Shown one piece after another: positions 9,040 to 63,133 of a stretch of DNA of 64,000 nt. This stretch comes from Corallium rubrum. Its lineage: Eukaryota > Cnidaria > Anthozoa > Scleralcyonacea > Coralliidae. A model generated the notes under the pieces. It ran no database searches and was not told the origin of the DNA. It worked only from the letters and a program-made list of their open reading frames with translations. The first letter of the stretch is position 1; every line of letters starts with the position of its first letter. The stretch is taken from contig OZ036008.1 of assembly GCA_964035015.1 (NCBI GenBank), forward strand, positions 11,805,192-11,869,191, given 5' to 3'. The translations under genes were made by a program, and so were the position numbers.

Positions 9040-9115
<76 letters not shown>

Positions 9116-12100
9116 CCATTAATGCTAACTGTAAATAACCATGATTAACTTTACAACAGTGCTGTAAACTAACTACAGTAACAAAGTCAGTATGCTATAT
9201 TCACAGCACTTTTGCTATAAATATACATGTAGCCACTTTCTTATTTTTTAAATTAATACAATATTTACAAAGCTGTTCATTTTAACACATAGCATATTTA
9301 TGTGCAAACTACAATATTAAATTTGCCAGCAATATATATTGTATGTATCAAAGGTTTAGTCATTTGTGGCATAGGTTAAAATGATGTAGAGAAACAAAGA
9401 AGTTTAAAGCTAAATGATACATATTGTAAATGATCGATAACAAACACTGCAGTTTAAGACTAAAGAATACGGATTTTGTCAGTTGCCGTGTTTAAGTTGA
9501 TATGCAGCCTCCATGCTGCAGAACTTGGCAGAGTGAGGTGGAATTCTTGCTTGGCTGGTAAAACAAGAGACAACTTTGGGGTGGTACAATCCAATATAAG
9601 TTCAACTGTATCTCCTTGCTTACAGGTGTTTTTCAGAGAATCTACGATTGAACTTTGCCTGTTAGTCCAAACTTGACCGGAATTACCAAGAGCCCAGCCA
9701 TACGAACCAGACCAGTTAAATGAATTATCACTTGATGCCGCTGTATCTGCTTTCACAATTCCAACCAACATCCAGTAATTATCCTGGAAAGACTCCAGCT
9801 TCAGCTGCCAACGTATTACTCCATCTTGATAAGTATTCTCACCAAGAACGTATTTATGATATCCGTTTGGTCCGTGCAATGCAACGGCGCCATCTTCTTC
9901 AATAGTTATTCCTGTGCTGTGTTGTTTGAACGACTCATTAATTCCCTTTGGCACCAACTCTTCCTTCAAGCCAAGATACTCAACAAGATTATTGAAATTC
10001 TTCAGCTGCTCTGAAGCAACCTTGGGTAATGGCGCAGGATTTTCTGGAGTTTCAACCTTCTTGGCGCGAAGATAATCCAAAATGAGATCAAAATATTTTG
10101 GATTAAAATCGAAGAAGACGCAGCCATCTTTGTCGCGTTTCAGACCATCTTCCCACCGCCCGCTAAACATCGAAGCGAGCAAAGATCCTTCGACTTGACA
10201 AAGAGTTGATCTTTCCGTTGTCATCTTTTGTCCACCAACATTCAAATTAATAATATCACTGTCGTTAACGGTAACAGCTTTCATTCGTTCCTTCTCGACG
10301 TTGTATGCGTCTACTTCCGCTTTCATTTTCGCTCTCTCGCTTTCGATAATTTCTTCGAACTCTGCCTTGAAACGCTTGGTCAAGGCGTCAAATTTTGCCA
10401 GTAAATCTTCGCCGTCCATGTTGCTGTTTAGGAACTTTCAGAAAAACAGTTATTTTACACGCAAGTCAAAGAAATTCAGTTGAACATCTAGACATACCAC
10501 CCGACATTTGCAGATTTGCTACTTTTTCTACATCCACGTACAATTAGTCAGCGGAAAATTTTACCGGTACTTCATGTTAAAAAGTACAAGATTTACGAGT
10601 GATTCCTCAGTGTTGATGAATGAAGCATAATGTTCGTAGAAACTATATTTTTAAAGTATAGCTATAAGTACATAACAAAGTCAATATAAACACAATAACT
10701 TTGAATTTTTATTTCCATATGACCAGACATTAGTCTGTCCCGAGATATTCAGTGGTTCATTTAGAATGACCAAAAATAATTCTAATTGCCATACCGTAAT
10801 TATTCGAATAAACGCCTCCCTCGAATAAACGCCGCCCTCGAATAAACGCCGCAGGGACAAGCAAAAATATTATTAAACGCCGCCCTTGAATAAACGCCGC
10901 ACCTGAAGCGCCAAAAATTTAATAAACGCCGCGGCGTTTATTCGGTACTTATCTTTAAAAAATAAGACAACATTAAATCTAAAGCAGTCTTGGATATTTA
11001 TTCTTCTCGATTACAATGTTATTTAGTTCAAAGTGGCTATACTTCATAGCTTTGCTACTTAGTTCTCTCTCTAAAACTTCTGCTATGCGCAGTTCCGTGG
11101 TGACAGCCGAGAATTTTGCCGGTACAACTAGTCCGATTTCTCTCTTTCTTTTTCCAGTGGCTTTCGCGAATAGTTTGTTCTCAGTGTTTGCGTCTAGGAA
11201 GTTCTTTAATAAGCGAGACAGCTCAATTGGGACGTGGCCAGCAAGCGTCTTCTTCGAATTCGGCTGCTTCGTGCCAGTGGGAGGTTTATAAACACCAATT
11301 GCGTTTTCATCGTGTTCCTTTGCCTCTGCGCGAGTATCTTTCTCACATTCAAGTATTTCATGAGTTTTGGGAGTCCACACAGACTTATAAACATGGTGAC
11401 CTCGGATAATCGTGTCAAAGTCTACCTTGAAATACATTTTGAACTCTACTGGCATTGCCCTTGCCATTGTTGCGACTTGCGAGTTAACTTTGTTTGAAAT
11501 TTGAGAAGGTTTGCATCAAGTTTGTGACATTAAGTTATTACTCGCACTTACTCAAATTACAAACATCGCTCGTGGTCCAATCAGCAAGTACGGTTTGTAT
11601 TCATGCTAATTGCAACTAGATCTATATTTTAGCACATGCAATGGCACAAAACCTACAACAAATGAGGAATGGCAGATTCAAATAGGGACCAAATTTCGCA
11701 CAAAGGACAAAAAAGACATAAATACAGCCTTGCAGTAAAAAAACAAGCAATCGCATATGCTGAAATACACGGAAATCGACCTGCTTCTCGCCAATTTCAA
11801 GTCGATGAAAGAAGAATACGAGAATGGAGAGCAAAGAAGAGTGATATCGAAGGTGTTCTTGCGGTAAGAGGTAACAAAGTCAAACAAAGAAGTAGATTGT
11901 GTGGAGCTGGCCGAAAACCGCTAAGCACGAAGTTAGAGGAAGTTTTAATGGAGTGGATTGAAAGCAGACGATCTCGCGGTCTTCGAGTTTCCAGTAAACT
12001 TATAATGAAGAAAGCACAAGTAACATTCAACGATATAAACCAAAATGACGTGACTGACGACGACTTTAAAGCTTCAAGAGGCTGGTTGGCAAAATTTATG

Positions 12101-15100
12101 AAGAGAAATGGTTTATCTTTGCAATTGAGAAGAAAAACCTCTATTGCTCAACAGGATCCAGAACGAATGATAGCTAAACTCGTGTCATATGTAATTCAAG
12201 TAAGACGCCTACAGAAAAAGCACGAATACAGCCCCTCTGATATCATTGCAATGGATGAAACTCCAGTTTGGTGCGATATGGTATCCGAAACCACTATTGA
12301 CGCAACCGGGACAAAGACTATTACACTGAAAACGACGGGTCATGAAAAGGCTAGAGCATCAGTTTGTTTAGCTGCCAAGGCCGATGGGACAAAACTTAAG
12401 CCTATGGTAGTCTTTAAAGGAGCAAAACGAGAATCCGCAGCGCTAAACGAAGAGTTCAAACGTAGAGCGGTCGTAGCCACTTCGGTAAATGGATGGATGG
12501 ACACTGAATTAACTCGTACCTGGACCAACTCTGTTCTAGGAGCGTTTTCTTTCAACCGAAGGCTGTTAGCTTGGGACTCCTACGAGTGTCACCTTGTGGA
12601 CAGTATAACCGACTCTCTGAAATCCAAGAAAATCGATCGCGTGATTGTCCCGGGAGGTTGTACCAAATATATACAGGCGCCCGACGTAAGTTGCAACAAA
12701 CCATTCAAATCATTGTGCACAGAAAGGTGTGATGAATGGCTGGCGACAGTAGGCATTCACGAAGAAACAGCAGCTGGGAATTTGAAAGCGCCACCAAGAA
12801 AAACCATTTTGCAGTGGATTCTGGATTCCTGGGATGAATTGCCTACAGATGTCATCAAGAAATCGTTCAAAAGTTGTGCATTGAACCTTCCAGTTGACGG
12901 CTCAGAAGATGATGCGATTCACTGTTTCAAGGAGGGACAGCCGTGCAACACTGGACAAGCCGTCCTGAAATCACAACTGGATATTCTCGACGAGCCAGAA
13001 ACGAATCCTTTCGACACTGAAGAATACACGTCTTCCGATGTTGAAGAGGCATGCCCTACTATTCAGCTGTTAGACTCGGACCACGAAGGAGACAGTGACA
13101 TTGAAATAGAATGAAACTTAGTCATTATATAAGACAGTGAACAGTTCAATTTTCATATATATTTATATATATTTAAAAGACATATGAATTTTATTCTTAG
13201 TTTTTTAATAAATTCACAGTTGTTGTTACAAAATTTGCAATAAACGCCGCCCTCGAATAAACGCCGCCCTCGAATAAACGCCGCACCTGAAGCGCCAAAA
13301 ATTTAATAAACGCCGCGGCGTTTATTCGAATAATTACGGTAACCATGCATTTTCCATAGTACAGCAATAAATGTGAGTTGCAAAATGTTGCATTATGTGA
13401 ATCAAAATATAATATAATTGTGGTACAATATAACAAAATGAAGGCAAGATAGAAAGTCTATATGCCATGCTACAATGTTCCTTAAGATTGTCATGCTAAC
13501 AAATCTCATCAACAGATCAACTCACCCAAGTCAAAAAAATGTTTAGCAGAGAAAATATCAACATGGAAAGTATGATCTACCATTGGGGTGGTGGCATTTG
13601 ACTTCGTTTTCTGACCCACCCCATGTCATACCACCAGGGCATTTGCATAAAGGCAGACTTGCCAACCTACCCCAAGCAAATACAGTGAGATCCAATTTTT
13701 TCCTCCAAAAAAATAGCGAGAAAAATGCAACAATAGTGATAAAACAACGTTCATGTTCAAATCAATTCATTTTGCTTTTTTCCCATGTAATAGTTTTAAC
13801 AAATATATACAGTAGTATTAATAAAAGATAAGACTTTTTTTGTTGTTTTTTGGGTTTTGTTTTATTTGACGATGGTATATACCATTGTCAAAATGGCGGA
13901 TGTGGAAATGAATTTATCGTGACTGCTAAATTACTGCGTTACTTCATGTCAGTTGTCCTACATCTACAGACTATACAATCTATGTCCATATTTCGGTAAA
14001 TTAAAATAAAATGTAAATTAATAGACAGATTTAGCAAACAGGACGTGGACGTCAAGAGGACGTCACTTGACCGGTGAAGACTGGGTCGAGGACGCCGTCG
14101 TGTTGTGAATAAAATCAGATTTAGCAAAATATCTGGGACGCTAGACAACGTTGTTTTTTGTTCTAGAACACTCTTTATCTAATAATCCATGGACTATGTA
14201 GAAAGAAGCTTTGTAGATGTTTTTCTGCCATTGATTTGCCCAGTATTACATGTAAGACAAATTTTCTAACGCAGATATCAGTAGGAGAGATAATTGTCAG
14301 GTCGCTACTATTTTGAGTGTGTCTGTATTAATTCAGATGTTCTCGAAATATCATTTACCACATTATCGACAGAACTTCTCTTTTGTCCATTAGCTTAGTG
14401 TGATTATTACTTATGTTTTTATTTAAATAAATCCACGATTTCTATTTTCTGCTGTCGTCATGTTGTCGTGATGCTTTTTTTTGTTTACCTGTGGTTGAAA
14501 TTTATGGCGCGGTGTGGTTTGCAATCTGTTCGTGATGCTTTAACCCTTGCCTATGCTGAAAACTATATCAGTGATGCTGAGTTTGTGTTGCTGTATGAGT
14601 ACAACCGTTCAAAACCCGTTTTTCCTTACTGGAAATTCAATGCTTTTAATTTGGAGACTTGGGATGACGAGGAGTGTCGGACAGAGCTACGGTTTGGCAA
14701 ACATGATCTCCCATTATTGATGCAGTGTTTGCAAATTCCTGAAAAAATTGTCTGCCAACAACGAACAACCTGTAGTGGAATGGAAGGGTTGTGTATTCTC
14801 TTGAAAAGACTGGCATACCCTTGTAGATACACTGACATGGCAACTCGATTTGGAAGGAACCCAACCGAAATGTGCCTTATATACAATACAGTACTGGATA
14901 ATATCTATGATATTCACCACCATCGCCTTGAAAGCTGGGACCAACCATTTCTTTTGCCAGAACAACTCCACAGCTATGCCCTTGCCATTCACAACCGTGG
15001 TGCCCCTCTTCAGAATTGCTTTGGATTTGTGGATGGTACAGTACGTCCAATTCCTAAACCAAAATACAACCAAAGAGTGATGTATAATGGTCATAAGCGA

Positions 15101-15898
15101 GTCCATTCCATAAAGTTTCAAAGCATTGTTGTACCAAATGGTCTTATTGTGAATCTTGCTGGTCCATTTGAAGGCAAGCGACATGACAGCACTATGCTGT
15201 ACGAGTCTGGTGTGCTGCCTAACCTGAGACGTGTTGCTTTTTACAACAACCAGCCACTTTGTTTATATGGTGACCCAGCATACCCTTTGGGAGTCCACCT
15301 TCAAGGACCCTTTAAAGAAAGACAACGTACCCCCGAAATGCAAGCTTACAACAAAGCTATGAGTGAAGTACGAGTTTCAGTGGAATGGATGTTTGGAAAC
15401 ATCACAAAGTATTTTAGTTTTGTTGATTTTAAAAGGCAAATGAAAGTGAACTTGAGTCCTGTTGGTAAGATGTATTTTGTTTCTGCATTACTTGAGAATG
15501 CCCACACCTGCCTTTATGGAAACATTGTTTCACAAGCATTTCAGCTTGAACCACCTTCACTACAGCAATATTTCTGGTAATTAATTATGCACTTCTTTCT
15601 TATTTTGTATTCTTAATTATTACAAAACTGTTAATTTAATTGCAATGTTGAACATATTGTTTTGAACATTAGAAGACAAAAATGTAATAATTTATTAAGA
15701 TGATAATTAACATTCAATTAACATTTCTTATAGTAAGTAACAATTTATATTTAATTAACAATTTATATTCAATTAACATTTTTTATAATAATTAAAATTT
15801 ATAAGCAAATTAACATGTTATAATAATAATTTGTATTATAATATGAATATAGATATATAATTTACATACATAATCAACAATTATACCATGAGCTTAAG

Positions 15899-15956
<58 letters not shown>

Positions 15957-18900
15957 TATTGGATGTTTTGGTATGTAGTATCGCTGTATATTTTTATGAG
16001 TTGTGCTTTATTTTGATGAGCCCACAGGGTGAGTCAAAATACAAATAACAAGTAAAAATGTACAGCGATGCTACACTCCAAAACATCTTATAAGAGATTT
16101 ATTATACAACTGCTCTGATCTACAAATTTTTATGGAAAAAGAAAACTATAAAAAGGCCAGAGAAGTAGTGTGACTTGTACCAAGACAAAATAATAAGCAT
16201 ACATGAAGTAGTCTCCTGTGTGATAAATTTGTTTGGCTCCAAATACAGTATCGCTGTATATTTGCACTCATTTTTAGCGTTATTTGGACAGTTTTTAATG
16301 CAGTTGTATAATAAGACTTCATATCCAGCCTAGTGGCAAATAGTATAATTGTTTTTATGTAGACAACCACTATAATTACATAATTTAAATGAAATTATTT
16401 TTTGCATTCACTTTACCAAATCCACCCAGTATTGAAGCTGCCTAATATAATAGAACATGCTATGTAATCGAGTGAAATGCCCAATATTACTTATAATATA
16501 ATCATGATTTTTTTTCTCTCATTACATTGACTTCATATATAGTGGTTGTCAGTATGTCTGTGTTTATATATCTATATCAAAAATTTATACAGTGTCACCT
16601 GATGTAACAAAACATTTAATCTTTTTCTTTAATTATATTGGCAAGCAATTGTGTTTGCTGCTGTTGTTGTTGCATAAATGTCATCATTTGCTGCTGCAAC
16701 ATGGCAAATTGTTGCTGCTGCTGCTGTTGTTGTTGCTGTTGTTGCTGCTGCATCTGGTGCTGTAAATACTGCTCCGACAGCTTCATTTGTGTAGAGCATT
16801 GCTGTTGGGTTGTACGAACCAGCTCCATAAATTCCATTTTCTGGGTATTCTGGGCTTCTCTCTCTTCCTTCTTTTCCTTTCTTTCCTGTTCCTTTGCTTC
16901 TTTGTCTAATTCAATCTTTTCATTCAACCATGTAAACATATCTCCTGATCTCCTTCTCTTTTTTACTTGTTCTTGACTCTCATCACTTCCAGTTGTTCTC
17001 TTTTTTGTCTCACTAAACCTCTCCATTGCCCTCTGTCTCATGTCTTTTGCTTGTGCCTTTTCTTTTTCATTCTTCTGTTTCTTCAATATATCTTCGTTTT
17101 CCATCATCAGGTCAGTCTCTTCACCAATTTCTATTAATTCCTCCAGTAAGCTTTCTCTCTCTGTCAATTCTTGGCCACCTTCACCTGTTGCTCTCTTTTC
17201 TTGGGCCATCTTTGCCTTGTATTTTTTTGACAATGTACCAAAGTGATCCCTGGCAGAACGAGCAGTTATCTCAAAACCTTGAGTGTTTAAATTATCTGCC
17301 ACTTTTTGCCATCTTGCCCCTCGTTCCCTTGATTTTTGCTTGTGATTTAAAACACCCTCTACAGTCACTTCTTTTAGTAAAGTAAGGTCCTTCTCATCAG
17401 ACCACACCATAACTGATCTAAATTAAAACATATTAAAACATAAGATTTAATACTGTATTGAACAGGTATATCATTGCTATCATATTTATTTTAGTAATAT
17501 AATGTATATAATACTTTTTCTTTAAGTTGTCTTCGTTCACTTCCATTTAGCGATAGTATATAAAGCTATATAAAGAACAAATAAATGAACAAAATTTAAT
17601 TTATTGTGGGTGGGGAATTATATGTTTATTTAAACAAAATAAACAGTGTTTATGAAAAATATATACGAAGATGGCAAATATTTGTAAACTAGACGAAGGA
17701 AAAACACTGCATTAAAAGTGTAAGCCTATTAAAATTGAGCATAAGAAAACAATTTAATTTAATTTAAGAAATAAAACAAAGAATGGATACAATAGTCTTC
17801 GGCGGATAATTTGTGTTTTGTTTAATATGAATCATTCATGACACAGAGCCAGAGGAACTATTTAATACGAGTTTACACATACGTACTAAGTATCATAAAT
17901 AAAACAAAGTTATACAGAACTACTACTTCTAATAAATGTTTTATTTGTACTTACCTTTTACATAGGAAAACAAACCAAAACAACTCGCGTCGTAGACAGG
18001 ACGTGAAATCTCACAATTCACGTCCTAAAAATCGCTGAGACGACGTCGTCTTTAGCGCCGGAAGTGAAATTGACTAAAATCCACGCCAGCTCACGCCATC
18101 TCACGTCCTCTTGACGTCCACGTCCTGTTTGCTAAATCTGTCTATTAATTCCCTTTGGCACCAGCTCTTCCTTCAAGCCAAGATACTCAACAAGATTATT
18201 GAAATTCGTCAGCTGCTCTGGAGCAACCTTGGGTAATGGCGCAGGATTTTCTGGAGTTTCAACCTTCTTGGCGCGAAGATAATCCAAAATGAGACCAAAA
18301 TATTTTGGATTAAAATCGAAGAAGACGCAGCCATCTTTGTCGAGTTTCAAACCATCCTCCCACCGCCCGCTAAACATCGAAGCGAGCAAAGATCCTTCGA
18401 CTTGACAAAGAGTTGATCTTTCCGTTGTCATCTTTTTTCCTCCAACATTCAAATGAATAATATCATTGTCGTTAACTCTCTCTCTTTCGATACTACTCAA
18501 ACCAGTAGAGCGAGACATGGACGATTTTTTTATCGCTTCCTAAGCACAGAATAAAGAACCACAGAATAGTAATACACCAGAAGTCCAACTCGCGTCGGAA
18601 CCTTTGAAGTTTATGTCCTCGCGCATGTCGCCTCGCGCATCTGGATTCCTCGCCATCCTACGCCATCCCACGCCATCCCACGCCATCCTGGCAAGTTCCC
18701 CCGGCAGTTTGGTCCTTCAAAAGGTTAAAACTGCCGGGGGAACTTGCCAGGATGGCGTAGAATGGCGTCGGATGCACTGATTTTATAGAGATCAGTGGTC
18801 GGATGGCGTAAAATATCGCGCCTGCGCATTGAAAAAATGCGGACAAGTTTTCACTTGAGTTGGACTTCTGGTTGTATTACAATCTCGTTCCCAGAGCCCA

Positions 18901-21900
18901 CGTTCCCCACCCGGGAAACGAGACTCTGGGATAATCCGTTTCACATCGATATTTCATTGGCTGATGAACACAGTGAACTCTATGTAACTCTTCTTCCGGA
19001 TAACAAGAATCCTGTGATAGCGAAAGTTACTGGAAATTGTAAGATGCGCGAATGAACGGATTTAACTCGCTGCGCATCCCACAATCTTTGTCAAGAACTG
19101 TTGACCATAAATTAAAAACACTATTAGGGGGGGTTGCACGGGGAGGAGGCGGGTTAAAAAGCCCCCCCGACAATTTTCAAGTTAGGGTTAGGGTTACCCC
19201 CGGGAAATTCACATTTTTGAGTTAGGGGGTTCGGGGGGGGGAAGGGTTTCATTAAAAACCTCTTTATTAAACAATTCCAGTAACTTACTGCATACAATGC
19301 TTTACAATGACAGTAGTTTACTGGTTACAACGTGAGCATCGACTGGAACTGAGCAGAAGGGCCACTCGGGGCTCAGAGTGTCGCCGTTTTTCAGTGCGCA
19401 TGCGCGGGGTCTGCCGAAGCTCGCAGCCAGTAAACCAGGTCAACAAGGAGTGTAATGGCGAAATACGGATTTGCTTCACTAAAATCGCTATATCTCACAA
19501 ACTAGTCGCCCGATCTTCACGCTACAACCAGCAGTGATTGAGAGAAGGTAAGTGACAATATTTTTGCTGTTTAGAAGACATGAAAAACATCTGAAAGTGA
19601 AAATTTACGGAATTAAAACCGCCACAGTATAGAGCCACTAAAGTATTCTTGTCGATTTTCCACTTGCCTTTACGGCTTGAAAAAAAAGAGTAGAAACTCT
19701 TTGAAAACATGTCAAACATTGAGTACAAAGATGAAATCACACGTATGTGTTATTATTTACTGAACCAGACGAGTAGCTCTGAACAACGAAGCAATTCTGT
19801 TAGGTGAATTTGGGGCAATTACACACTGTGACACTCTGAAATTTGCTGACCAGTATTCCATAAATCAAACTACTAAGTGCCCACAATCTACCCGCTTTTC
19901 AAAACTAAAGTTAATAGCTCTCCAATAATAACTTTAATATTTTTATTGAGAAGCGTGGCTGATTTTTATGTTTGTTTTGTTTTTTATTACAGTTGAATCA
20001 TGCATACAGTATTTCTTCTTCAACTTGTTTAATATATTCATATCATGTCAGACCATTGATCTTCTTGAACTTGAAAGCAGTGTACTGAAATATATGCGAT
20101 CAGTCCAAGATTGGGGTTGCTAAGCTCCTTCATAGTACATATTTTAGATCAAAACAAGGACTGGTGTATAATAAGAATTTCAATGGAGCATTGTGTTTAC
20201 TGGATGGTCACTTGTAAATTATTTCTATAGTTTGATACTGTACTTTGATTTGTACTACAGTGTAAATTATTTTTTTGCTATATAAAAATAAATATTTGGG
20301 ATTGACTGTTTGTGATTGAATTGAGGTTGAATTTCTTCTTGAACTGCACCAGTGCAACAGCAAATTTGCTCCAAACAAAGTCATTCAGAGAAATTAGTTT
20401 TACTAAAACAATGTCCTTGTCCAATCTGAGATTAAATTTTGCTAATCAGGCCTTTCCAGATTACAAAAAAGAAGGGAGAATGCAATTGCATGCAAACATT
20501 TCTGCCTAGTTAGTTTCAATTAATCAATGGTTTATAGTGCTGTATATAAACTTGCACAATATCAAATGATTTCAACATGCAAAACTGATTGCTATTGAAA
20601 AAGTTTTATTCCTTCTGTAAGACAATGATGTGAAAAAACTTTATATATATTCTATCATGTATTCTAATAGAAATTTGGAATATTTTGTAATTCAGTTTTT
20701 TAACTGCAAATATGGTATTAAAACATACAAATAGCCCTGGCCCCTGGTGTCAAACAAGACAGCAAACAGCTCACAGGTGGTGACATCAAGCAGTAATTTA
20801 AACATAAGTTACCTCTATCATAAGTTTAATTCCTACATGTTAGTTTTATGAAATTTTAAAAAAATATAACAACAGTACTAAACTGGCCTAATTAATTTCA
20901 AAATATATTTAATACTGTAAAACGACAAAACGTCACCTAATAGAATTGCTTCGTTTTCAAAATTACTCAATCCATTCAAGAAATAACAGGAAATATGTGC
21001 AGTTTAATCTTTATACTTAACGTTTAAACTGCTTTTAAAGATTGTCTGCTCTTATTTTTGCTTGCAAATGCAAGTTTAAAGAAGATGGTAATGCTTTAAA
21101 TAGCTTCACACAGTGGCGGTTCGAGTTCGTTTCAATTCCGTAAATTTTCACTTTCAAATGTTTTTCGTACCTTCTAAACGGCAAAAATATTGTCATCTAC
21201 CTCCTCTATTACTACTGGCGGGCCCTTCTGCTCAGTTCTTTATTCTGTGCTCCTAAGTGTCAGTTTTACAGTATTAACCGCGGATCAATTTCAAAGCAAT
21301 CACGAGGTGTATTCTCATGTACCACGTGATAAACATCCAATTGTTTATACCATTGTTAACTCGTAAACAAGCTATCACGTGGTACATAAGAATACACCTC
21401 GTGATTGCTTTGAAATTGATCTGCGGTTAACGAAACTGTTGCTTCGGAAGCAATGAAAACATCGTCTGTGTCTCGCTCTACTGATTTGAGTAGTAATTTC
21501 TTCGAACTTTGCCTTGAAACGCTTGGTCATGGCATCAAATTTTGCCAGTAAATCTTCGCCGTCCATGTTGCTGTTTAGGAACTTTTAGAAAAACAGTTAT
21601 TTTACACACAAGTCAAAGAAATTCAGTTGAACGTCTAGACATATACTACTCGACATTTGCAGATTTGCTACTTTTTCTACATCCACGTACAATTAGTCAG
21701 CAGAAAATTTCACTGGTACCTCATGTTAAAAAGTACAAGATTTACGAGTGATTCCTCAGTTTAGTAATCGAGTGTTGATGAATCAAGCATAATGTTCGTA
21801 GAAAGTATAGCTATACGTACAAACAAAGTCAATATAAACACAATAACTTAGAGTTTTTATTTCCATAATCACTTGATGACCAGACATTAGTCTGTCCCGA

Positions 21901-24900
21901 GGTATTCGGTGGTTCATTTAATAGAATGACCAAATACAAAATGAAGGCAAGATAGAAAGTCTATGTACCATGCTCCAATGTTCCTTAAGATTGTCATGCT
22001 AACAAATCTCATCAACAGATCAACTCACCCAAGTCAAAAAGATGTTTAGCAGAGAAAATATCAACATGGAAAGTATGATCTACCATTGGGGTGGTGGCAT
22101 TTGACTTCATTTTCTGACCCACCCCATGTCATACCACCAGGGCATTTGCATCAAGACAGACTTGCCAACCTACCCCAAGCAAATACAGTGAGATCCAATT
22201 TTTCCCTCCCAAAAAGTAGTGAGAAAAATGCAAAAATAGTGAGAAAACAACGTTCATGTTCAAATCAATTCATTTTGCTTTTTTCCCATGTAATAGTTTT
22301 AACAAATACAGTAGTATTAATAAAAGATAAGACTTTTTGTTGTTGTTTTTTGGGTTTTGTTTTATTTGACGATGGTATATACCATTGTCAAAATGGCGGA
22401 TGTGGAAATGAATTTTTCGTGACTGCTAAATTACTGCGTTACTTCATGTCAGTTGTCCTACATCTACAGACTATACAATCTATGTCCATATTTATTTTGT
22501 CGTTAAATTTCGGTAAATTAAAATACTGAAATCAAACCAATGAAGAATCTAGTTTTAGGATTTTAATTTATCGTCAGAATCGAGTACGGAATCGTGAGAC
22601 CGTGAGATTGTAGTCAAAACGGCAAAACCGCGAGACTTGGCAGGTCTGTGTATGTACAGTGTGAAAATATATTTATACAATAATTTGAATAGTATGTGCG
22701 TTTTTATTAATCGATAGCCATGATCTATAAAAGGACAGATGCACAGATTACATCACTGACGTGGTCTGATTTCTCTAAACCAATCACAGATCTCACTGCA
22801 ACATCATGAGCCAATGACGTTGCTTGATTTGTATAGATCATGGATCACGTCAGATAAAGTGATTTATCTTTTTTAATGCCCTGGAAATTCACTGGGAAAT
22901 TTAATAAGTCTGTTGAAACATAATTTTTCAATTTTCTATTGTATAAAATAAATAGATTCAATTTTTTTATTGTCTGTTCAGTTATAGATGTACAGAGGAC
23001 GTCACAACGTGCTAAGAACATCAGTGACCCACATGTTTTGTTGTGTCTGTTTCATTGGTCGTTGTCACATCAGCTTTGTAGATGACTTCTGCAACCATGC
23101 AGTTTCCTTTCAAGGGGCAATCGGTTTTATTTCTGCAGCTGCAATTTTGTTTGTTGTTGTTGTTGTTGTTGTTGTTGTTGATGTTGCTGTCATTGTTGTT
23201 GTTACTGTTTTCTTTCAATAGAATGCGGTGGTTGTGTTTGGAAATAGCACTTTTGATGTTTTCCATGCAGCTTGACAGGAACTAAAGTGAAACTTTTTTA
23301 GTTTCCTGATTGATGATCACTTAACGTGTGAAACTCGGAGTAGCAACGTTCATTTTTTAAATAAAATCTATCTTGCTCTACCTTCAAAAGTATCGAGCAC
23401 TCTGTGGTCTATTGTAAACGACTACTTTAACTATATATATACATATATACATATATATATATACATATATACATATATACATATATAAATATTACCAGGG
23501 TTAAGTCACGTTGGCCTGAAAAACAGAGAAAAATCTTCTCGACGTTTCGAGCGAAGGCCCTTCGTCAGGAGAAATTAGTAAACAACTCACATGTGGTCAC
23601 GCGTATTTATAGCAGAGCTACAATGGGAATCACGTGAACACATGTAAGCCAATAAAAACAAAGTAAACAAATAAATTAATATGTAATTTTAGCCTGTGTG
23701 CAGGTGATGACCCAATTTGTGGGTCAGCTACCTGCAAATAGGCAAAGAAACAGGTTATAAATTACTATTTAAATCATCAGAAAAAGGTTAAGGAAAAGGT
23801 GTGGAATATGGTGGTGGAGTGAGCTAAATGAAAGAGAATCGCTCATTGAGGCCGTGAGGGTGAATGGTACCAAGTTTGTAAATGAGACGCATTTCTTGTT
23901 TACGACGAGTATCGTTACAACCTGTAATGGGCTGAATGGCACAGATTTTCATGTTGGAAAAGGAGTGGTTGGCACTGTTGAAGTGCCTGGCAACAGGTTT
24001 GTTTTGCACATTGTATTTGACATCACGAAGGTGTTCAACAAACCTGTCACCTAAACGTCTTCTAGTTTCTCCGATGTAAAGCATGGGACATTTACTGCAA
24101 GAGATACAGTAAATGAGGTTGGAGGAAGTGCAAGTGAAACTGTGGGTAATGTTGAACTTACATTTTGGAGCCGAAATTGAAATTGAGGAGTCTAAATATT
24201 TGTATGTACGATACTCGTCGTAAACAAGAAATGCATCTCATTTGCAAACTTGGTACCATTCACCCTCACGGCCTCAATGAGCGATTCTCTTTCATTTAGC
24301 TCACTCCACCACCATATTCCACACCTTTTCCTTAACCTTTTTCTGATGATTTAAATAGTAATTTATAACCTGTTTCTTTGCCTATTTGCAGGTAGCTGAC
24401 CCACAAATTGGGTCATCACCTGCACACAGGCTAAAATTACATATTAATTTATTTGTTTACTTTGTTTTTATTGGCTTACATGTGTTCACGTGATTCCCAT
24501 TGTAGCTCTGCTATAAATACACATGACCACATGTGAGTTGTTTACTAATTTCTCCTGACGAAGGGCCTTCGCTCGAAACGTCGAGAAGATTTTTCTCTGT
24601 TTTTCAGGCCAACGTGACTTAACCCTGGTAATATTTGGATTTCAACCGTGGCCGACGCTGTCCTAGAAGCTTTTAACTGTATACATATATACATATATAT
24701 ATATATATAACCATTAATGCTAACTGTAAATAACCATGATTAACTTTACAACAGTGCTGTAAACTAACTACGGTAACCAAGTCAGTATGCTATATTCACA
24801 GCACTTTTGCTATAAATATACATGTAGCCACTTTCTTATTTTTTAAATTAATACAATATTTACAAAGCTGTTCTTTTAACACATAGCATATTTATGTGCA

Positions 24901-27900
24901 AATTACAATATTAAATTTGCCAGCAATACACACGTAAAAATGCCCAGTCTGATCAGCTCTGATATCAGATCTGTTCGGAGAAATGTAGCAACCCTTGATA
25001 CCGCCTGACAGCTACAGAATGTACCAGCGCTGATGTATAAACATTTAGTTAGAATTTCTGACAGACTGCAACAGCTCCGTAGACAACATACCTGTTCAGT
25101 CTATTATATCAAACTGATACAGCACTGACCGTGTCAGGCTGATACAGTTTGACAGAATCTGTTCTGAACAGTCTGTTGTAGCTGCAGGTATGATACAGAT
25201 ATGATATCATAGGTGTATCATACCTGATACTGCAACAGGCTGTATCAGGGGTCGCTACATTTTTCTGAACAGATCTGACATCATTCTGCATCAGGTCTGA
25301 CACAGAGTGTGCGTTTTTGCATGTGTATATATTGTATGTATCAAAGGTTTAGTCATTTGTGGCATAGGTTAAAATGATGTAGAGAAACAAAGAAGTTTAA
25401 AGCTAAATGATACATGTTGTAAATGATCGATAACAAACACTGCACTTTAAAACTAAAGAATACGGATTTTGTCAGTTGCCGTGAGTAAGTTGATATGCAG
25501 CCTCCATGCTGCAGAACTTGGCAGAGTGAGGTGGAATTCTTGCTTGGCTGGTAAAACAAGAGACAACTTTGAGGTGGTACAATCCAATATTAGTTCAACT
25601 GTATCTCCTTGCTTAAAGGTGTTTTTCAGAGAATCCACATTTGATTCTTGCCCGTTGGTCCAAGCTTGACCGGAATCACCAAGAGCCCAGCCATACGAAC
25701 CAGACCAGTTATATGAATCATCACTTGATGGTACTGTATCCGCTTTCACAATTCCAACAAACATCCAGTTATTATCCTGGAAAGACTCCAGCTTCAGCTG
25801 CCAACGTATTACTCCATCTTGGTAAGTATTCTCACCAAGAACATATTTAAACCATCCGTTTGGTCCGTGCAATGCAACGGCGCCATCTTCTTCAATAGTT
25901 ATTCCTGTGCTGTGTTGTTTGAACGACTCATTAATTCCCTTTGGCACCAGCTCTTCCTTCAAGCCAAGATACTCAACAAGATTATTGAAATTCTTCAGCT
26001 GCTCTGAAGCAACCTTGGGTAATGGCGCAGGATTTTCTGGAGTTTCAACCTTCTTGGCGCGAAGATAATCCAAAATGAGACCAAAATATTTTGGATTAAA
26101 ATCGAAGAAGACGCAGCCATCTTTGTCGCGTTTCAGACTATCTTCCCACCGCCCGCTAAACATCGAAGCGAGCAAAGATCCTTCGACTTGACAAAGAGTT
26201 GATCTTTCCGTTGTCATCTTTTGTCCACCAACATTCAAATGAATAATATCACTGTCGTTAACGGTAACAGCTTTCATTCGTTCCTTCTCGACGTTGTATG
26301 CGTCTACTTCCGCTTTCATTCTCGCTCTCTCTCTTTCGATAATTTCTCCAAACTCTGCCTTGAAACGCTTGGTCAAGGCGTCAAATTTTGCCAGTAAATC
26401 TTCGCCGTCCATGTTGCTGTTTAGGAACTTTCAGAAAAACAGTTATTTTACACACAAGTCAGAGAAATTCAGTTGAACGTAGATCCTAGATATATACTAC
26501 ACGACATTTGCACATTTGCTACTTTTTCTACATCCACGTACAATTAGTCAGCGGAAAATTTCACTGGTACTTCATGTTAAAAAGTACAAGATTTACGAGT
26601 GATTCCTCAGTGTTGATGAAGCATAATGTTCGTAGAAACTATATTTTTAAAGTATAGCTATAAGTACATAACAAAGTTAAGATAAACACAATAACTTTGA
26701 GTTTTTATTTCCATAATCACTTGATTATGTCCCGAGGTGTTCGGTGGTTCATTTAATAGAATGACCAAATACAAAATGAAGGCAAGATAGAAAGCCTATA
26801 TACCATGCTACAATGTTCCTTAAGATTGTCATGCTAACAAATCTCATTAACAGATCAACTCACCCAAGTCAAAAAGATGTTTAGCAGAGAAAATATCAAC
26901 ATGGAAAGTATGATCTACCATTGGGGTGGTGGCATTCAGGGGCGTCGGAGCAACACTAAAAGGGTGGGAGTGGCCCAAAATTTTTAGGGGGGTTCGGGGG
27001 CATGCTCCACCGGGAAATTTTGAAATCTAGAGTCTCTGAAATGCCATTTCCTGCATTTTGGGACAAGGATTTACAGAATTCTAAAGGTCCAAAAACGTTA
27101 TAAAATACTCAAAAGACAACACTTTTCCGGACATTGAATATCTGCACTCAAATTTCTTTATTATATCTATTCAAAGTCGTGGGTTAGCTAGGGTTTGTGA
27201 TGTTGTTAATCATAACTTTATTACTGGCCTTGTTTAATACTGGTCTTGTTAAGAAGTGGGGGGTAATAGTTTTAACAAATACCGTAGTATTAATAAAAGA
27301 TAAGACTTTTTTTTGTTGTTTTTTGGGTTTTGTTTTATTTGATGATGGTATATACCATTGTCAAAATGGCGGATGTGGAAATGAATTTTTCGTGACTGCT
27401 AAATTACTGCGTTACTTCATGTCAGTTATCCTACATCTACAGACTATACAATCTATGTCCATATTTATTTTGTCGTTAAATTTCGGTAAATTAAAATACT
27501 GAAATCATACCAATAAATAATCTAGTTTTAAGATGTTCATTTATCGTGAGAATCAAGCACAGAATCGTGAGATTGTAGTCAAAATTGTGAGTCTCACGGC
27601 AAAACCGTGAGACTTGGCAGGTCTGTGTATGTACAGTATGAAAATATATTTATACAATAATTTGAATAGTATTGTTGAGTGGCTAGCACTCGTTGAGGTT
27701 CAGTTATGATTGTTATGATATTTAAACTATTGTATATGGCGTATAATGACGCGAACTGTCGTAGGCACGGTCTTTCAACCGTTTTGTGGTTTTGAGTTGT
27801 TGTACCTCTGTGTTGAGAGGCTTAATTTATCTTTCTGTAATCTATTGCTAAGATACCTTAATAAATATATAACATTTGGTGGCAGCGGTGGGATGGCTGA

Positions 27901-30788
27901 GAAAGAAAGAAACCTCGAAACAGAAGGAAGAAATGCGAGGTCGGACGCCGTCCGTTGAGTCAGTGGCAAAGCAAGTGGTAAACTCCAGGGCGAAACCAGA
28001 TGTCTACAAAGACGGGCCTTGGGAGGAATGGCTGAACCACTTCCAGTTGTGCGCAGAGATAAACCAGTGGAATGAAGACCAACGCTGTCAGCAACTAGCA
28101 GTTTCCTTGAGAGGTCGAGCCCAAACGGTTTACATCACGTTAAGCACCGAGGAAAAGTCGAGCTACAAAGAATTACTGGCAGCCCTGAACAAAAAGATGA
28201 CACCGCCGCAAGAAAGAGTCGTTCACAAATTAGCATTTCGTCAGAGGAAACGGGAAAAAGGAGAAAAACTCGTGGATTTGGCGACTAGCTTGCGGAGATT
28301 GGCAGCAAGAGCGTATCCGGGAAAAGATTCGACGTTTATCGAGGACGAGATCGTTGACCAGTTTATCAGTGCGCTCGACTCGAGGGAATTACGCATCGGA
28401 GTAAGTCAAACAAGTCCCACAAGTTTGGACGAAGCACTTTCTACGGGCCTGAGACTGGAGAGCCTTCACGCCATAGAAAACAAACACCGAGATCGTGACC
28501 GAGATGCAAGAATCAATATGGCCGACATTGTTGATGTGACGTCAACCGCTGGCGTAAATACGGCGGGCGCAAGAAACGACGATATCCCAGCATGGGCGAA
28601 GAATTATTTCGACCAGCAGACGAAGTTGATGGAAAGATTACTAGAAGCTACGACGGCTCCGAAAACACCAGGGAAGCGTTCAGTTATTTGCTACAAGTGT
28701 GGGAAACAAGGTCATTACCAACGAGAATGCCGATCCAGAGTTGATGACAGAAACACCAACCAATCCGGAAGTGATCAGGGAAACGCCAACAGGGCGGGGT
28801 CTTACCGATGGTGACTCCGCCCGCGCCAGTCAACCCGGAGATTATGAATCCACCAAAATGCGTATCGAGTGCGGCGATGGGGAATGCGATATTTATCAAG
28901 TGTGAAATAAACCAACACCACGTCAACGCCTTGGTGGACTCCGGTGCAGCGGTCACGCTAATACATTCGGACGTCTTCTATAGAACAAAGAGCAAAGCTA
29001 CCAGCATGTGGTCATCGCATCAACCAATACTAGGAGCAAACAACAATCCCTTAGCTATTTGTGGAATCGCAGAAATCGATATAAAGATTGAAGATACCGT
29101 TATTCACCATCGAGTTTACGTGTGCAAAGACCTGGCCCAAGAGTTGCTGCTAGGAGCTGACTTCCTCAAGAAGAATAATTGTGTTATTGACTTTGAAAGG
29201 GAAACCATTAAGATTGGAGCCCTAGAATGCAAGATGGATTCGACGAGTGCTAGAAAGATTTGCCATGTCGCGGTAGCATCCTCAGTTACCATACCACCCA
29301 GATGTATGGTAAACGTTTGTTGTAACGTGGAAGAAGCCAGTGTCGTTGGTAAAACAACTGGAGTACTTGAACCTGAACCAAGATTTGAGAACCGATACTC
29401 GGTAGGTATCATCAAGGTCGTGGCAACAGTGAACAAGGGTGGAATCCCTGTCCGAGTATTCAACCCCCTATCCAAGCCGGTAAGGATCTTCAGAGGTAGC
29501 ACAGTTGGGAAGCTATTTCCACTAGTAGAAACCGAACAAGAAGAAAAGACAGAGGATCAACAATCATGTTACCACGTTTGCCAAGGTATCAGCAATTCGG
29601 AGGTTAAGGAGACATATGCATCCGTGACAAGTCGTCGGGAACACAACAAAGAGACGATGGAAGAAATGGCTAATTTATTTAAGATAGAGAACCCATCGTT
29701 GTCAAAGGATCAGAGGGAGACGGTATACAACATACTAAGTCAGCACAGTGGCGCAGTTTCTAGAGGAAAGACTGACCTAGGAGAATTGAAAACGAGCCAA
29801 CATTTCATCGAGACAGGCGAAGCGGGGGAATAGTGTTGAGTGGCTAGCACTCGTTGAGGTTCAGTTATGATTGTTATGATATTTAAACTATTGTATATGG
29901 CGTATAATGACGCGAACTGTCGTAGGCACGGTCTTTCAACCGTTTTGTGGTTTTGAGTTGTTGTACCTCTGTGTTGAGAGGCTTAATTTATCTTTCTGTA
30001 ATCTATTGCTAAGATACCTTAATAAATATATAACAGTATGTGCATTTTTATTAATTGATAGCCATGATCCATAAAAGGACAGATGCACAGATTACATCAC
30101 TGATATGGTCTGATTTCTCTAAACCAATCACGGATCTCACTGCAACATCATGAGCCAATGATGTTGCTTGATTTCTATAGATCATGGATCACGTCAGATA
30201 AAGTGATTTATCTTTTTTAATGCCCTGGAAATTCACTGGGGAAATTTAATAAGTCTGTTTAAACATAATTTTTCAATTTTCTATTGTATAAAATAAATAG
30301 ATTCAATTTTTTTATTGTCTGTTCAGTTATAGATGTACAGAGGACGTCACAATGTGCTAAGAACACCAGTGACCCACATGATGTTTTGTTGTGTCTGTTT
30401 CATCGGTTGTTGTCACATCAGCTTTGTAGATGACTCCTGCAACCATGCAGTTTCCTTTCAAGGGGCAATCGGTTTTATTTCTGCAGCTGCAATTTTGTTT
30501 GTTGTTGTTGTTGATGATGCTGTTGCTGTCATTGTTGTTGTCATTGACTCATTGTTGTTGTTACTGTTGTTGTTTTCTTTCGATAGAATGCAGTGGTTGT
30601 GTTTGGAAATAGCACTTTTGATGTTTTCCATGCAGCTTGACAGAAACTAAAGTGAAACTTTTTTAGTTGCCTGATGATCACTTCACGTGTGAAACTCGGA
30701 GTAGCAACTTTCATTTTTTAAATAAAATCTATCTTGCTCTACCTTCAAAAGGATCGAGCACTCTGTGGTCTATTGTAAACGACTACTT

Positions 30789-30843
<55 letters not shown>

Positions 30844-33800
30844 CCATTAATGCTAACTGTAAATAACCATGATTAACTTTACAACAGTGCTGTAAACTAA
30901 CTACAGTAACCAAGTCAGTATGCTATATTCACAGCACTTTTGCTATAAATATACATGTAGCCACTTTCTTATTTTTTAAATTAATACAATATTTACAAAG
31001 CTGTTCATTTTAACACATAGCATATTTATGTGCAAATTACAATATTAAATTTGCCAGCAATATATATTGTATGTATCAAAGGTTAATTAGTCATTTGTGG
31101 CATAGGTTAAAATGATGTAGAGAAACAAAGAAGTTTAAAGCTAAATGATACATATTGTAAATGATCGATAACAAACACTGCAGTTTAAGACTAAAGAATA
31201 CGGATTTTGTCAGTTGGCTCGAGTAAGTTGATATGCAGCCTCCATGCTGCAGAACTTGGCAGAGTGTGGTGGAATTCTTGCTTGGCTGGTAAAACAAGAG
31301 ACAACTTTGAGGTGGTACAATCCAATATTAGTTCAACTGTATCTCCTTGCTTACAGGTGTTTGTCGGAGAATCCACATCTGATCCTTGCCCGTTAGTCCA
31401 AACTTGACTGGAATTACCAAGAGCCCAGCCATACGAACCAGACCAGTAATATGAATTATCATTTGATGGTACTGTATCCGCTTTCACAATTCCAACAAAC
31501 ATCCAGTTATTCTTGAAAGACTCCAGCTTCAGCTGCCAACGTATTACTCCATCTTGATAAGTATTCTCACCAAGAACGTATTTATGCCCTCCGTTTGGTC
31601 CGTGCAATGCAACAGCACCATCTTCTTCAATAGTTATTCCTGTGCTGTGTTGTTTGAACGACTCATTAATTCCCTTTGGCACCAACTCTTCCTTCAAGCC
31701 AAGATACTCAACAAGATTATTGAAATTCTTCAGCTGCTCTGAAGCAACCTTGGGTAATGGCGCAGGATTTTCTGGAGTTTCAACCTTCTTGGCGCGAAGA
31801 TAATCCAAAATGAGATCAAAATATTTTGGATTAAAATCGAAGAAGACGCAGCCATCTTTGTCGCGTTTCAGACCATCTTCCCACCGCCCGCTAAACATCG
31901 AAGCGAGCAAAGATCCTTCGACTTGACAAAGAGTTGATCTTTCCGTTGTCATCTTTTGTCCACCAACATTCAAATTAATAATATCACTGTCGTTAACGGT
32001 AACAGCTTTCATTCGTTCCTTCTCGACGTTGTATGCGTCTACTTCCGCTTTCATTTTCGCTCTCTCGCTTTCGATAATTTCTTCGAACTCTGCCTTGAAA
32101 CGCTTGGTCAAGGCGTCAAATTTTGCCAGTAAATCTTCGCCGTCCATGTTGCTGTTTAGGAACTTTCAGAAAAACAGTTATTTTACACGCAAGTCAAAGA
32201 AATTCAGTTGAACATCTAGACATACCACCCGACATTTGCAGATTTGCTACTTTTTCTACATCCACGTACAATTAGTCAGCGGAAAATTTCACCGGTACTT
32301 CATGTTAAAAAGTACAAGATTTACGAGTGATTCCTCAGTGTTGATGAATGAAGCATAATGTTCGTAGAAACTATATTTTTAAAGTATAGCTATAAGTACA
32401 TAACAAAGTCAATATAAACACAATAACTTTGAATTTATATTTCCATATGACCAGACATTAGTCTGTCCCGAGATATTCAGTGGTTCATTTAGAATGACCA
32501 AAAATAATTCTAATTGCCATAACCATGCATTTTCCATAGTACAGCAATAAATGTGAGTTGCAAAATGTTGCATTATGTGAATCAAAATATAATATAATTG
32601 TGGTACAATATAACAAAATGAAGGCAAGATAGAAAGTCTATATGCCATGCTACAATGTTCCTTAAGATTGTCATGCTAACAAATCTCATCAACAGATCAA
32701 CTCACCCAAGTCAAAAAAATGTTTAGCAGAGAAAATATCAACATGGAAAGTATGATCTACCATTGGGGTGGTGGCATTTGACTTCGTTTTCTGACCCACC
32801 CCATGTCATACCACCAGGGCATTTGCATAAAGGCAGACTTGCCAACCTACCCCAAGCAAATACAGTGAGATCCAATTTTTTCCTCCAAAAAAATAGCGAG
32901 AAAAATGCAACAATAGTGATAAAACAACGTTCATGTTCAAATCAATTCATTTTGCTTTTTTCCCATGTAATAGTTTTAACAAATATATACAGTAGTATTA
33001 ATAAAAGATAAGACTTTTTTTGTTGTTTTTTGGGTTTTGTTTTATTTGACGATGGTATATACCATTGTCAAAATGGCGGATGTGGAAATGAATTTATCGT
33101 GACTGCTAAATTACTGCGTTACTTCATGTCAGTTGTCCTACATCTACAGACTATACAATCTATGTCCATATTTCGGTAAATTAAAATACTGAAATCATAC
33201 CAATAAAGAATCTAGTTTTAGGATTTTCTTTTATCACAAGAATCAAGTACAGAATCATGAGATTGTAGTCAAAATTGTGAGTCTCACAGCAAAACCTAAG
33301 TACGTAGTTCCACGATGCAAAACGAGAACACACCAAAGATCGTTTTGGATAAGATCAACTAGAACTTGGAACACTCTAACTGATAAGTTAGACTTAAGCA
33401 TGATTAGTCTTAATTTATTTAAGTCTGTAATGTTTAATTACTATTTCACTGCCTTGGAGAAAATGTACGACTGTGAAGATCCACGTACATTTAAGACGAT
33501 CTGTCCAAGATGCAACAACTCACGGAGCCTATTAGGCCCAATAAACTGTTGCTATTAGAACTGTAATTATTATTTTATTGTCAATTGTCTATATTTATTT
33601 TTTTCAGTCTTTTGTGGGCCCGCAGTAATTGCTCATGCTGTTGCAGATACCCAGCCATCTTCTTTTTAGTGTTATTATTTCAGTATTTATGTACATAATT
33701 AGATGGCAAAGCTAATAAAATTAAAAAAAAACTAAAAATAAAACTGTGAGACTTGGCAGGTCTGTGTATATACAGTATGAAAATATATTTATACAATAAT

Positions 33801-46262: not shown

Positions 46263-46802
46263 TTTGGTTATTAACCAGACACAGTGCTAAAAAGTGGTGC
46301 CCTGTGGCATACAAAATATCGCGTTAAAAATGTCGTGTCAAAAATATACTACTGATTCCTAACGAATAAACAAATGAATGAACTCACACACAGAATATAA
46401 AGCATTTGAAAGTTAGTTGCACCCACAAGCCAACTTTCAGGGCACTGCAATTAGATCATATTACTTGTATATTAATTATTGATAACAAATAACACTGCAT
46501 ATTACTTAAACTGATACATTATGTGTTGATAATTTCATTGCAGTTTCCAAAGATGGAAGATAAAAACCAGGAAATGTTTTGTGTTAGTTATGTTACCCTA
46601 GTGATTGATGGAGGTAGACTAAATATCAGTGTTCACATTTTATTTGTGCTGTAGTAGTTTCCGTAATCTAGATGAACGGGAGGGCAGAATTAGTTATAGA
46701 ATTAGTTGGCCATTTATAATCAGGGCTAGAATGAATGAATGAATGTAGGTACAGTACAGAGTTGTTGTCTAACAATCGTAAGTTGTTATATGTTTATACT
46801 GT
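46263..46802. other. Intergenic DNA, no recognised feature
   Basis: Between the MNT-like gene and a foldback element. Short gaatgaatgaatg run near 46732. No gene seen. Confidence 0.45.
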
Positions 46803-48134
46803 ATGGAGGACCAACCCTCTTGGTAGGGCTAGCCCTAGTAAGAGGGCTAGAATTTACCTCGTGTTTACATGAGCTTTTTTGATAGGGCTAGCCCTAGTAA
46901 GAGGACTGGAATTTACCTCGTGTTTACATTAGCTTTTTTGATAGGGCTAGCCCTAGTAAGAGGACTGGAATTTACCTCGTGTTTACATGAGCTTTTTTGA
47001 TAGGGCTAGCCTTAGTGAGAGAGCTGGAATTTACCTCGTGTTTACATGAGCTTTTTTGATAGGGCTAGCCTTAGTGAGAGAGCTGGAATTTACCTCGTGT
47101 TTACATGAGCTTTTCTGGTAGGGCTAGCCTTAGTAAGAGGGCTGGAATTTACCTCGTGTTTACATGAGCTTTTTTGGTAGGGCTAGCCCTAGTAAGAGGG
47201 CTGGATTTCACCTCACGTTTACATGAGCTTTTTGGTAGGGCTTCCGCTAGTAAGAGAGCTGGAATTTACCTCGTGTTTACATGAGCATTTTTGGTAGGGC
47301 TAGCCCTAGTAAGAGGGCTGGATTTCACCTTGCATTGGCTTTTTTACCGACTTGTGCAGTGTTCCCACGAAGCCTGAAATCATGTTTTCGCAAACACGAT
47401 TTGAATTTATAACAAACACATGAACAAACGCATCTTGTAAAATAAAAAGTTGACCAAAAAATATTAGTAAAGGCAAATTTTACCGTGTATACTGAGCTTC
47501 GATTTCCTAAGAGGGTCAGCCCTCTTGAGCGCATTTACATATGAACTTTCCAGCCCTGCTACACGCGTAAAATGCTCGCAAGTTGTTACAGCATTGTTGC
47601 CTGAACAATGCTGTAACAACTTGTTGACATATGTGAACAACAGTGATAAATGAACAACATTGTTCATCATTGTTTCAAGAAGTTGTTACAGCTTGATGAA
47701 ACAACAACCATTGTTCACACATGTTGTAACAACCGAAGAACGTGTTGATACATCAACCATGTTCACCATTGTTGTAACATTGTTCATCATTATTTTGTCA
47801 TACTGTTACAACATGTTGTATCATGTGTGAACAACGTTGTTGGCTATAAAAATGTGCTGTTGGAACAACTTGTTCATGACTGTTGATTTATCTGTGAACA
47901 AGTTGTTCGAACCATAAGTGAACAACTTGTTGACAACTTGTACACGGTGAGCAGCACAACACTGTTCACGCCTGTTGACAACCGTGAACAAGTTGTGCGT
48001 TTTTATGCATGTAGATCTCACTGAGGAGGGCTGACTGTCTTGTCATGTACACGCAAACATATTTTACAAGGAATTACACCGAGTTGCGGGATTTCAGCAA
48101 AGAAGGCTAGCCCTACCAAGGGGCCCTCCTCCAT
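46803..48134. mobile_element. 1.3-kb foldback element with 61-bp tandem repeats
   Basis: Ends atggaggaccaaccctcttgg and aaggggccctcctccat plus tagggctagccct are inverted. The left interior is about nine copies of a 61-bp repeat (agggctagccctagtaagag to gtgtttacatgagctttttt). A second MITE is nested at 47573-48011. No transposase. Confidence 0.82.
47573..48011. repeat. TA-flanked MITE with CAACAAGTTGTTCAC palindromes
   Basis: Ends CACGCGTAAAATGC and GCGTTTTTATGCATG, TA on both sides. The interior is made of gttgttcac/gtgaacaac words. About 90% similar by eye to 62410-62889. Confidence 0.85.
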
Positions 48135-48721: not shown

Positions 48722-49222
48722 ACTCGCAAGTTGTAGGAAGGGTGTTACACGTTCAGCATCTTGCGAACTTTGTTGCAAGTTGCAGCAAAAAGTAGAACCC
48801 ATCCAACTTTTCTTATTGTACCACCTTAATGTATACAGAACTCGCGATCAAGCTCTCGGCAACGGCCTCCATGGCTCAGTGGTCAGAGCATTGCACTAGA
48901 ATCGCAAGGTCGTGGGTTCAATTCCTGCCGGAAGGCCTGTGTAGTTGCATTTTTCGCAACTGGTCCCGGTATGGTTTTATAGTGTATATATTCTACACTC
49001 GAATTTTCCTCCACCAAAAATCCCTAGAACATGCTATGTAATCGAGTGAAATGCCCAATGTTACTTCTAATAAACTTTTCTTGCAACTTGCAACACGACA
49101 GAAATAACAAAATCGCAAGTTGCTACGGGGTGTTACACAGTGCGAATTTTCAGTTTGCAACCTGCAACCTTCAGGCAATTTGTTGCAAGTTGCAAGAAAA
49201 ATCGCATCGTGTAACAGCAGCT
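48722..49222. repeat. MITE carrying a SINE insertion
   Basis: Inverted and direct words tcgcaagttg, gtgttacac and cgtgtaacag recur at 48722-48800 and 49085-49222. The SINE at 48855-49075 sits in its centre. Confidence 0.65.
48855..49075 (+). mobile_element. tRNA-derived SINE
   Basis: Head 48864-48937 folds like a tRNA: acceptor ggcctcc/ggaaggcc, box A tggctcagtggtcagagc, box B ggtcgtgggttcaattcc, anticodon loop ctagaat (would read AGA). The tail gaacatgctatgtaatcgag is repeated at 16452-16490 and, inverted, at 34325. No CCA and imperfect stems, so it is a SINE and not a tRNA gene. Confidence 0.82.

Positions 49223-52503: not shown

Positions 52504-63133
<10,630 letters not shown>

Follow-up and report, generated by a model that had tools for sequence, protein, structure and literature searches.

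A 64,000-nucleotide stretch of the genome of Corallium rubrum (contig OZ036008.1, positions 11,805,192 to 11,869,191; the whole of it is referred to below as the window) contains four copies of one gene in a common orientation, three of them intact (termed here A, C and D) and one broken (B), and recombination between these copies is the probable reason why the two halves of the gene differ in their history. The tandem duplicates would encode adaptors composed of an N-terminal helix, a KCTD-type BTB domain and a SPRY-fold domain, with the putative target-binding (SPRY) half escaping the homogenisation that affected the rest. That recombination or gene conversion acted differently on the two halves is supported by the distribution of substitutions, by the silent sites and by conflicting genealogies.

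The three intact copies were re-aligned and the alignment was divided into the 5' flank, codons 1-170 (the N-terminal half), codons 171-stop (the SPRY half) and the 3' flank. Between A and D these regions contain 2/354, 0/510, 33/447 (plus a 3-bp deletion) and 2/342 (plus one indel) substitutions, respectively; for this A-D contrast (p = 4e-18) the initial annotation had given approximate counts, all of which hold. The coding changes are confined to codons 177-312, where they replace 20 residues, in line with the estimate of about 20, and remove one. A scan of 1436 columns placed 33 of the 35 A-D substitutions in one "hot" block of 405 columns, with a score reached in 0 of 200 shuffles; the distribution thus stays uneven in a proper alignment. 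The corresponding counts are 25/346, 8/510, 29/450 and 6/341 for A-C, where about 8 versus 30 had been reported for the two halves, and 25/346, 8/510, 25/447 and 4/341 for C-D. The contrast between halves holds for both of these pairs (p = 8e-5 and p = 0.001), and in all three pairs divergence of the SPRY half exceeds that of the N-terminal half and of the 3' flank. The BTB half, initially described as invariant, deserves this name only in the comparison of A with D; C differs from both at eight sites, six of which change the amino acid.

Silent sites change at the same boundary. Between A and D, 8 of ~100 silent sites differ in the SPRY half versus 0 of ~104 in the N-terminal half (p = 0.003), or versus 7 of ~1478 once non-coding sites are added to the latter (p = 9e-7). 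Silent divergence should not rise through amino-acid selection, so that the SPRY segments of A and D appear to be of greater age than the sequence around them, and selection on new point mutations alone is inadequate to explain the jump. The genealogies point in the same direction: outside the SPRY half, 36 of 40 variable sites single out C, whereas inside it the three copies are roughly equidistant, with 10 of 43 unique states in C, 18 in A and 15 in D (p = 5e-10 for the difference between inside and outside). The two patterns conflict, which argues for a different, older history of the SPRY segment. A GENECONV-style shuffle detected a run of 18 variable sites identical between A and D, comprising part of the 5' flank and the N-terminal half (p = 0.0002), and the score of a two-breakpoint partition was reached by 0 of 300 shuffles, with A-D discordant at 35 of 48 sites inside and 2 of 35 outside; the left break falls at codon 177. 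The shift in silent sites, the conflicting unique sites and the identical run together support recombination or gene conversion, the latter in line with the earlier suggestion. The accompanying idea of a pool of cassettes found no counterpart in the window, which holds three intact SPRY halves, that of copy B having been lost.

The domain assignments differ in strength between the two halves. The BTB_2 (KCTD-type) family of Pfam matches A, C and D with 50.1, 49.3 and 50.2 bits, above the curated cut-off of 21.4. The Pfam SPRY family matches only C, with 17.0 bits (under the cut-off of 26.3); A and D give weak, sub-cut-off matches to aRib instead. No NACHT, RING or B-box domain was found in A, C or D in the Pfam search (E up to 1). 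Structure modelling predicted that the C-terminal half takes the beta-sandwich SPRY fold; since the Pfam cut-off is missed, we use the label "SPRY-fold" and do not call the protein a member of Pfam SPRY. The model is poor over the BTB part (block means of the predicted local distance difference test, pLDDT, of 27-39 for residues 41-170). The variable residues of the SPRY half are mostly placed in predicted loops (20 of 25 in a first model, 18 of 25 in a second), as had been presumed from the sequence. A search of a viral structure library returned B30.2/SPRY-named proteins, tail-fibre proteins and others from phages and some giant viruses (2.6e-6 and weaker), matches that we take to reflect a shared fold only. 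The best solved matches, KCTD9, KCTD16 and SH3KBP1-binding protein 1, have BTB_2 in common with the query (residues 52-155), and the 50 solved matches listed are all confined to the BTB portion, the SPRY half being matched in sequence by none of them. KCTD proteins are generally known to dock CUL3, and by analogy with them the BTB half probably assembles the protein and docks the CUL3 ubiquitin ligase; the SPRY-fold half probably binds a target through its loops.

How the two histories could have arisen may be pictured in two ways. In the most economical account the SPRY segment of A or D would have been replaced from another copy over a tract of roughly 400-450 bp, i.e. the SPRY half of a third copy would have entered A or D after both had come to share the surrounding block. 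Alternatively, the flanks and the BTB half would have been homogenised and the SPRY differences kept, which would result in the same pattern and also fits the low divergence of the N-terminal half and the 3' flank in each of the three pairs. In A-C, silent sites of the N-terminal half have changed less (2/105) than the 5' flank (25/346), though with p = 0.057 only. Either gene conversion or unequal exchange could have been the process.

A number of observations weigh against an explanation by exchange between copies. The sample consists of three intact copies from one window, and the case for domain-specific conversion draws largely on A and D. For no other pair is the silent contrast significant (8 versus 2 changes in A-C, p = 0.054; 5 versus 2 in C-D, p = 0.27), A-C is without a long identical run (p = 0.36), and the run in C-D is marginal (p = 0.049). 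The right break is poorly placed, because the GENECONV-style scan continues into the 3' flank, and the window contains no copy whose SPRY half would identify it as the donor. Mosaic tracts inside the SPRY half were considered and rejected: the 43 unique sites form 23 runs versus 28.7 expected (P = 0.04), and once sites of the same codon are merged they are not clearly clumped (P = 0.27). In the pairs with C the hottest scan interval lies in the 5' flank, not in the SPRY half (11/50 in A-C, as high in 1 of 200 shuffles; 12/50 in C-D, 0 of 200). The 5' flank of C (7%) is as divergent as its SPRY half, so that in these pairs the N-terminal half and the 3' flank are the unusually similar parts.

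The position of the hottest interval in the pairs with C also speaks for neutral paralogy, under which the SPRY half would keep the old divergence of the array (~6-7%), chance conversion or exchange having homogenised the remainder of A and D, while the loops would be merely tolerant and variety as such would not be selected. The silent divergence of the SPRY half in A-C equals the level of the 5' flank (8/100 versus 25/346, p = 0.83); omega does not exceed 1, and values of about 1 are expected from relaxed constraint as well. We nevertheless regard neutral paralogy as rather unlikely, given that the SPRY half is more divergent than the N-terminal half and the 3' flank in all three pairs, that the break at codon 177 is close to the predicted start of the domain, and that loops carry more A-D changes than strands do (28/216 versus 5/228, p = 1e-5, first model).

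Diversifying selection, which the initial annotation had offered beside gene conversion, is disfavoured as the sole cause. If A and D were recent duplicates in which selection then fixed point mutations in the SPRY loops, the 20 residue differences and their mostly loop-centred placement would be accounted for, and folded domains usually have an omega well below the values near 1 found here. Such a course of events would however leave C the odd copy in the SPRY half as it is outside, which is not so, and it does not accommodate silent divergence of ~8% in this half versus less than 1% in the flanks; we therefore consider it improbable. As to selection as such, the data do not support dN above dS: NG86 estimates of omega in the SPRY half are 0.90 (A-D), 0.73 (A-C) and 1.11 (C-D), pooled 0.88, with 0.98 in loops and 0.67 in strands and a bootstrap P(dN>dS) of 0.50, values that carry little power with three sequences, and positive selection on the SPRY half, as a force that favours its variety, is possible. 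A local hypermutation process aimed at the SPRY segment would raise both silent and replacement change within a delimited block, as seen here, and between A and D the loops show more silent change than the strands (6.5/48 versus 1.5/52; p = 0.03 or 0.15 depending on the rounding of halves), but it is highly improbable, as base-directed mutagenesis was rejected (with the majority base taken as original, 13/131 A, 11/126 T, 11/105 G and 8/88 C are changed, and no base stands out) and a steady process would leave A and D closest in the SPRY half, where in fact no other pair is as far apart (33 versus 29 and 25).

In the MATH-BTB and F-box adaptor families of nematodes and plants, the domain that docks the ligase is conserved and the one that binds the substrate changes fast. 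The former, reportedly treated by Thomas in 2006 together with the F-box adaptors, are said to carry MATH in place of SPRY and a BTB domain of another class. The coral array works like the NLR-B30.2 and finTRIM systems on a different scaffold, and is a member of neither family. According to the available text on zebrafish NLR-B30.2 genes (PMC4852459), gene conversion is differential between NACHT and B30.2, B30.2 is under positive selection, and recognition is assigned to this SPRY-type domain. Domain-specific conversion and a synonymous divergence that differs between domains are shared with the coral genes, whose two domains differ in synonymous divergence and in genealogy (mainly in A-D, among three copies). 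The zebrafish system comprises nearly 400 genes on a NACHT/LRR scaffold, with positive selection reported; the coral array has a KCTD-type BTB scaffold and three intact copies in the window, and positive selection is only possible. For the finTRIMs (van der Aa et al. 2009, PMC2657112) the portion of the paper at hand places the selected sites mainly in B30.2 loops and mentions a recombination point detected by GARD. Likenesses include the SPRY-type domain, loop-centred variability, a ubiquitin-ligase-type scaffold and growth by duplication; the finTRIMs differ in their RING/B-box TRIM scaffold and in significant positive selection in B30.2. Among BTB adaptors, the BTBD6 expansion of deep-sea vent snails (PMC7736800) likewise consists of tandem genes in an invertebrate, there called CUL3 adaptors, but its authors read them as nervous-system genes, and the accessible part of their text describes neither a SPRY domain nor conversion.

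SPRY-type B30.2 is described, in the available parts of the literature, as a variable recognition module in TRIM5alpha, finTRIMs and fish NLRs (PMC4852459, PMC2657112). Were the same true on a KCTD-type BTB scaffold, CUL3 substrate receptors could also become rapidly re-aimed recognition arrays. None of the literature matches listed, all from open-licence literature, deals with an array of KCTD-SPRY or BTB-SPRY genes, which is weak evidence of absence; the sole literal "BTB-SPRY" in the text available is a Naegleria protein in a table. One may speculate, as a doubtful extension, about an intracellular recognition system in an animal without known adaptive immunity, in which many KCTD-type adaptors with a fixed ligase-docking half and interchangeable SPRY halves, renewed by cassette swapping, would re-aim one degradation machine at changing targets, e.g. 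pathogen proteins.

The coordinates of the copies and of their parts are collected in the table.

Features of the gene array (positions in the window; ORF, open reading frame)
Feature	Position	Strand	Description
Copy A	9460..10419	-	Uninterrupted ORF, 319 aa
Copy B, BTB piece (codons 51-161)	18144..18476	-	SPRY half absent; homology ends at codon 161, beside Harbinger-like element
Copy B, first 24 codons	21494..21566	-	Separated from the remainder by ~3 kb insertion
Copy C	25453..26412	-	Uninterrupted ORF, 319 aa; sole copy with a weak Pfam SPRY match
Copy D	31191..32147	-	Uninterrupted ORF, 318 aa; BTB_2 (KCTD-type) N-terminal half and SPRY-fold C-terminal half
Copy D, SPRY half	31191..31637	-	33 substitutions and 3-bp deletion versus copy A, alignment codons 177 to 312
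Copy D, codons 1-170	31638..32147	-	No difference from copy A in 510 bases; BTB_2 (residues 57-153) preceded by a predicted helix (3-48)
Block around copy D	30793..33188		Near-identical to A block (9065-10793 + 13331-14008), SPRY half excepted

The repeats reach past the gene ends, so that the array consists of segmental duplicates with later transposon insertions. A 678-bp part of the A and D blocks contains 3 substitutions by BLAST, the value adopted here (MAFFT gives 5/680 for this intergenic block). The MAFFT intergenic divergence for the pairs with C (18.5-19.8%) was set aside, as BLAST identity is 96% on shorter pieces; C probably carries unrelated sequence there. The possibility that A and D are duplicated haplotypes in the assembly was rejected on the evidence of the assembled sequence: both lie on one sequence, and D has the empty site of the Tc5-type element of A. 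A six-frame profile search of the window revealed the three intact copies and both pieces of B but nothing further, and of the stretches matching a pattern for relatives in viral contigs (9 and 278) and in genome contigs (204), 0 were confirmed by tblastn. The BTB piece of B has 3 or 4 silent changes in ~71 silent sites, and the segment covering its 5' flank and initial codons shows 87.7% identity to A and D and 90.0% to C.

Transposable elements of Tc5-type, Harbinger-like and Gypsy-type kinds are present in the window, which is eukaryotic; these types suggest an animal. A Tc5/pogo-type element (10794-13339) lies in unit A, with inverted ends beside TA duplications and an uninterrupted ORF (11669-13114), its empty site being in unit D. 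A Harbinger-like element (14017-18149) has DDE_Tnp_4 and Myb/SANT-like ORFs between inverted ends; since its right end abuts codon 161 of copy B and its left flank is unit A, the likely event is either insertion plus loss or exchange involving two elements. The insertion that splits copy B after codon 24 (18491-21495, ~3 kb) has imperfect inverted ends of ~60 bp. A short Gypsy-type element (27670-30042) has terminal repeats of ~205 bp, 99.5% identical, and two ORFs with matches to gag zinc knuckle and aspartyl protease; as the second of them runs up to the 3' repeat, a reverse transcriptase would have no room. The ORF at 52504-53232 has no Pfam or PDB match. We also found an inverted repeat at 23487-24636 (429-bp arms, 99% complementary), a 59-bp tandem array at 46761-47408, adjacent to a segment (47592-48013) that recurs at 62463-62891 with 93.7% identity, and a tRNA-Ser gene with anticodon AGA at 48865-48937.
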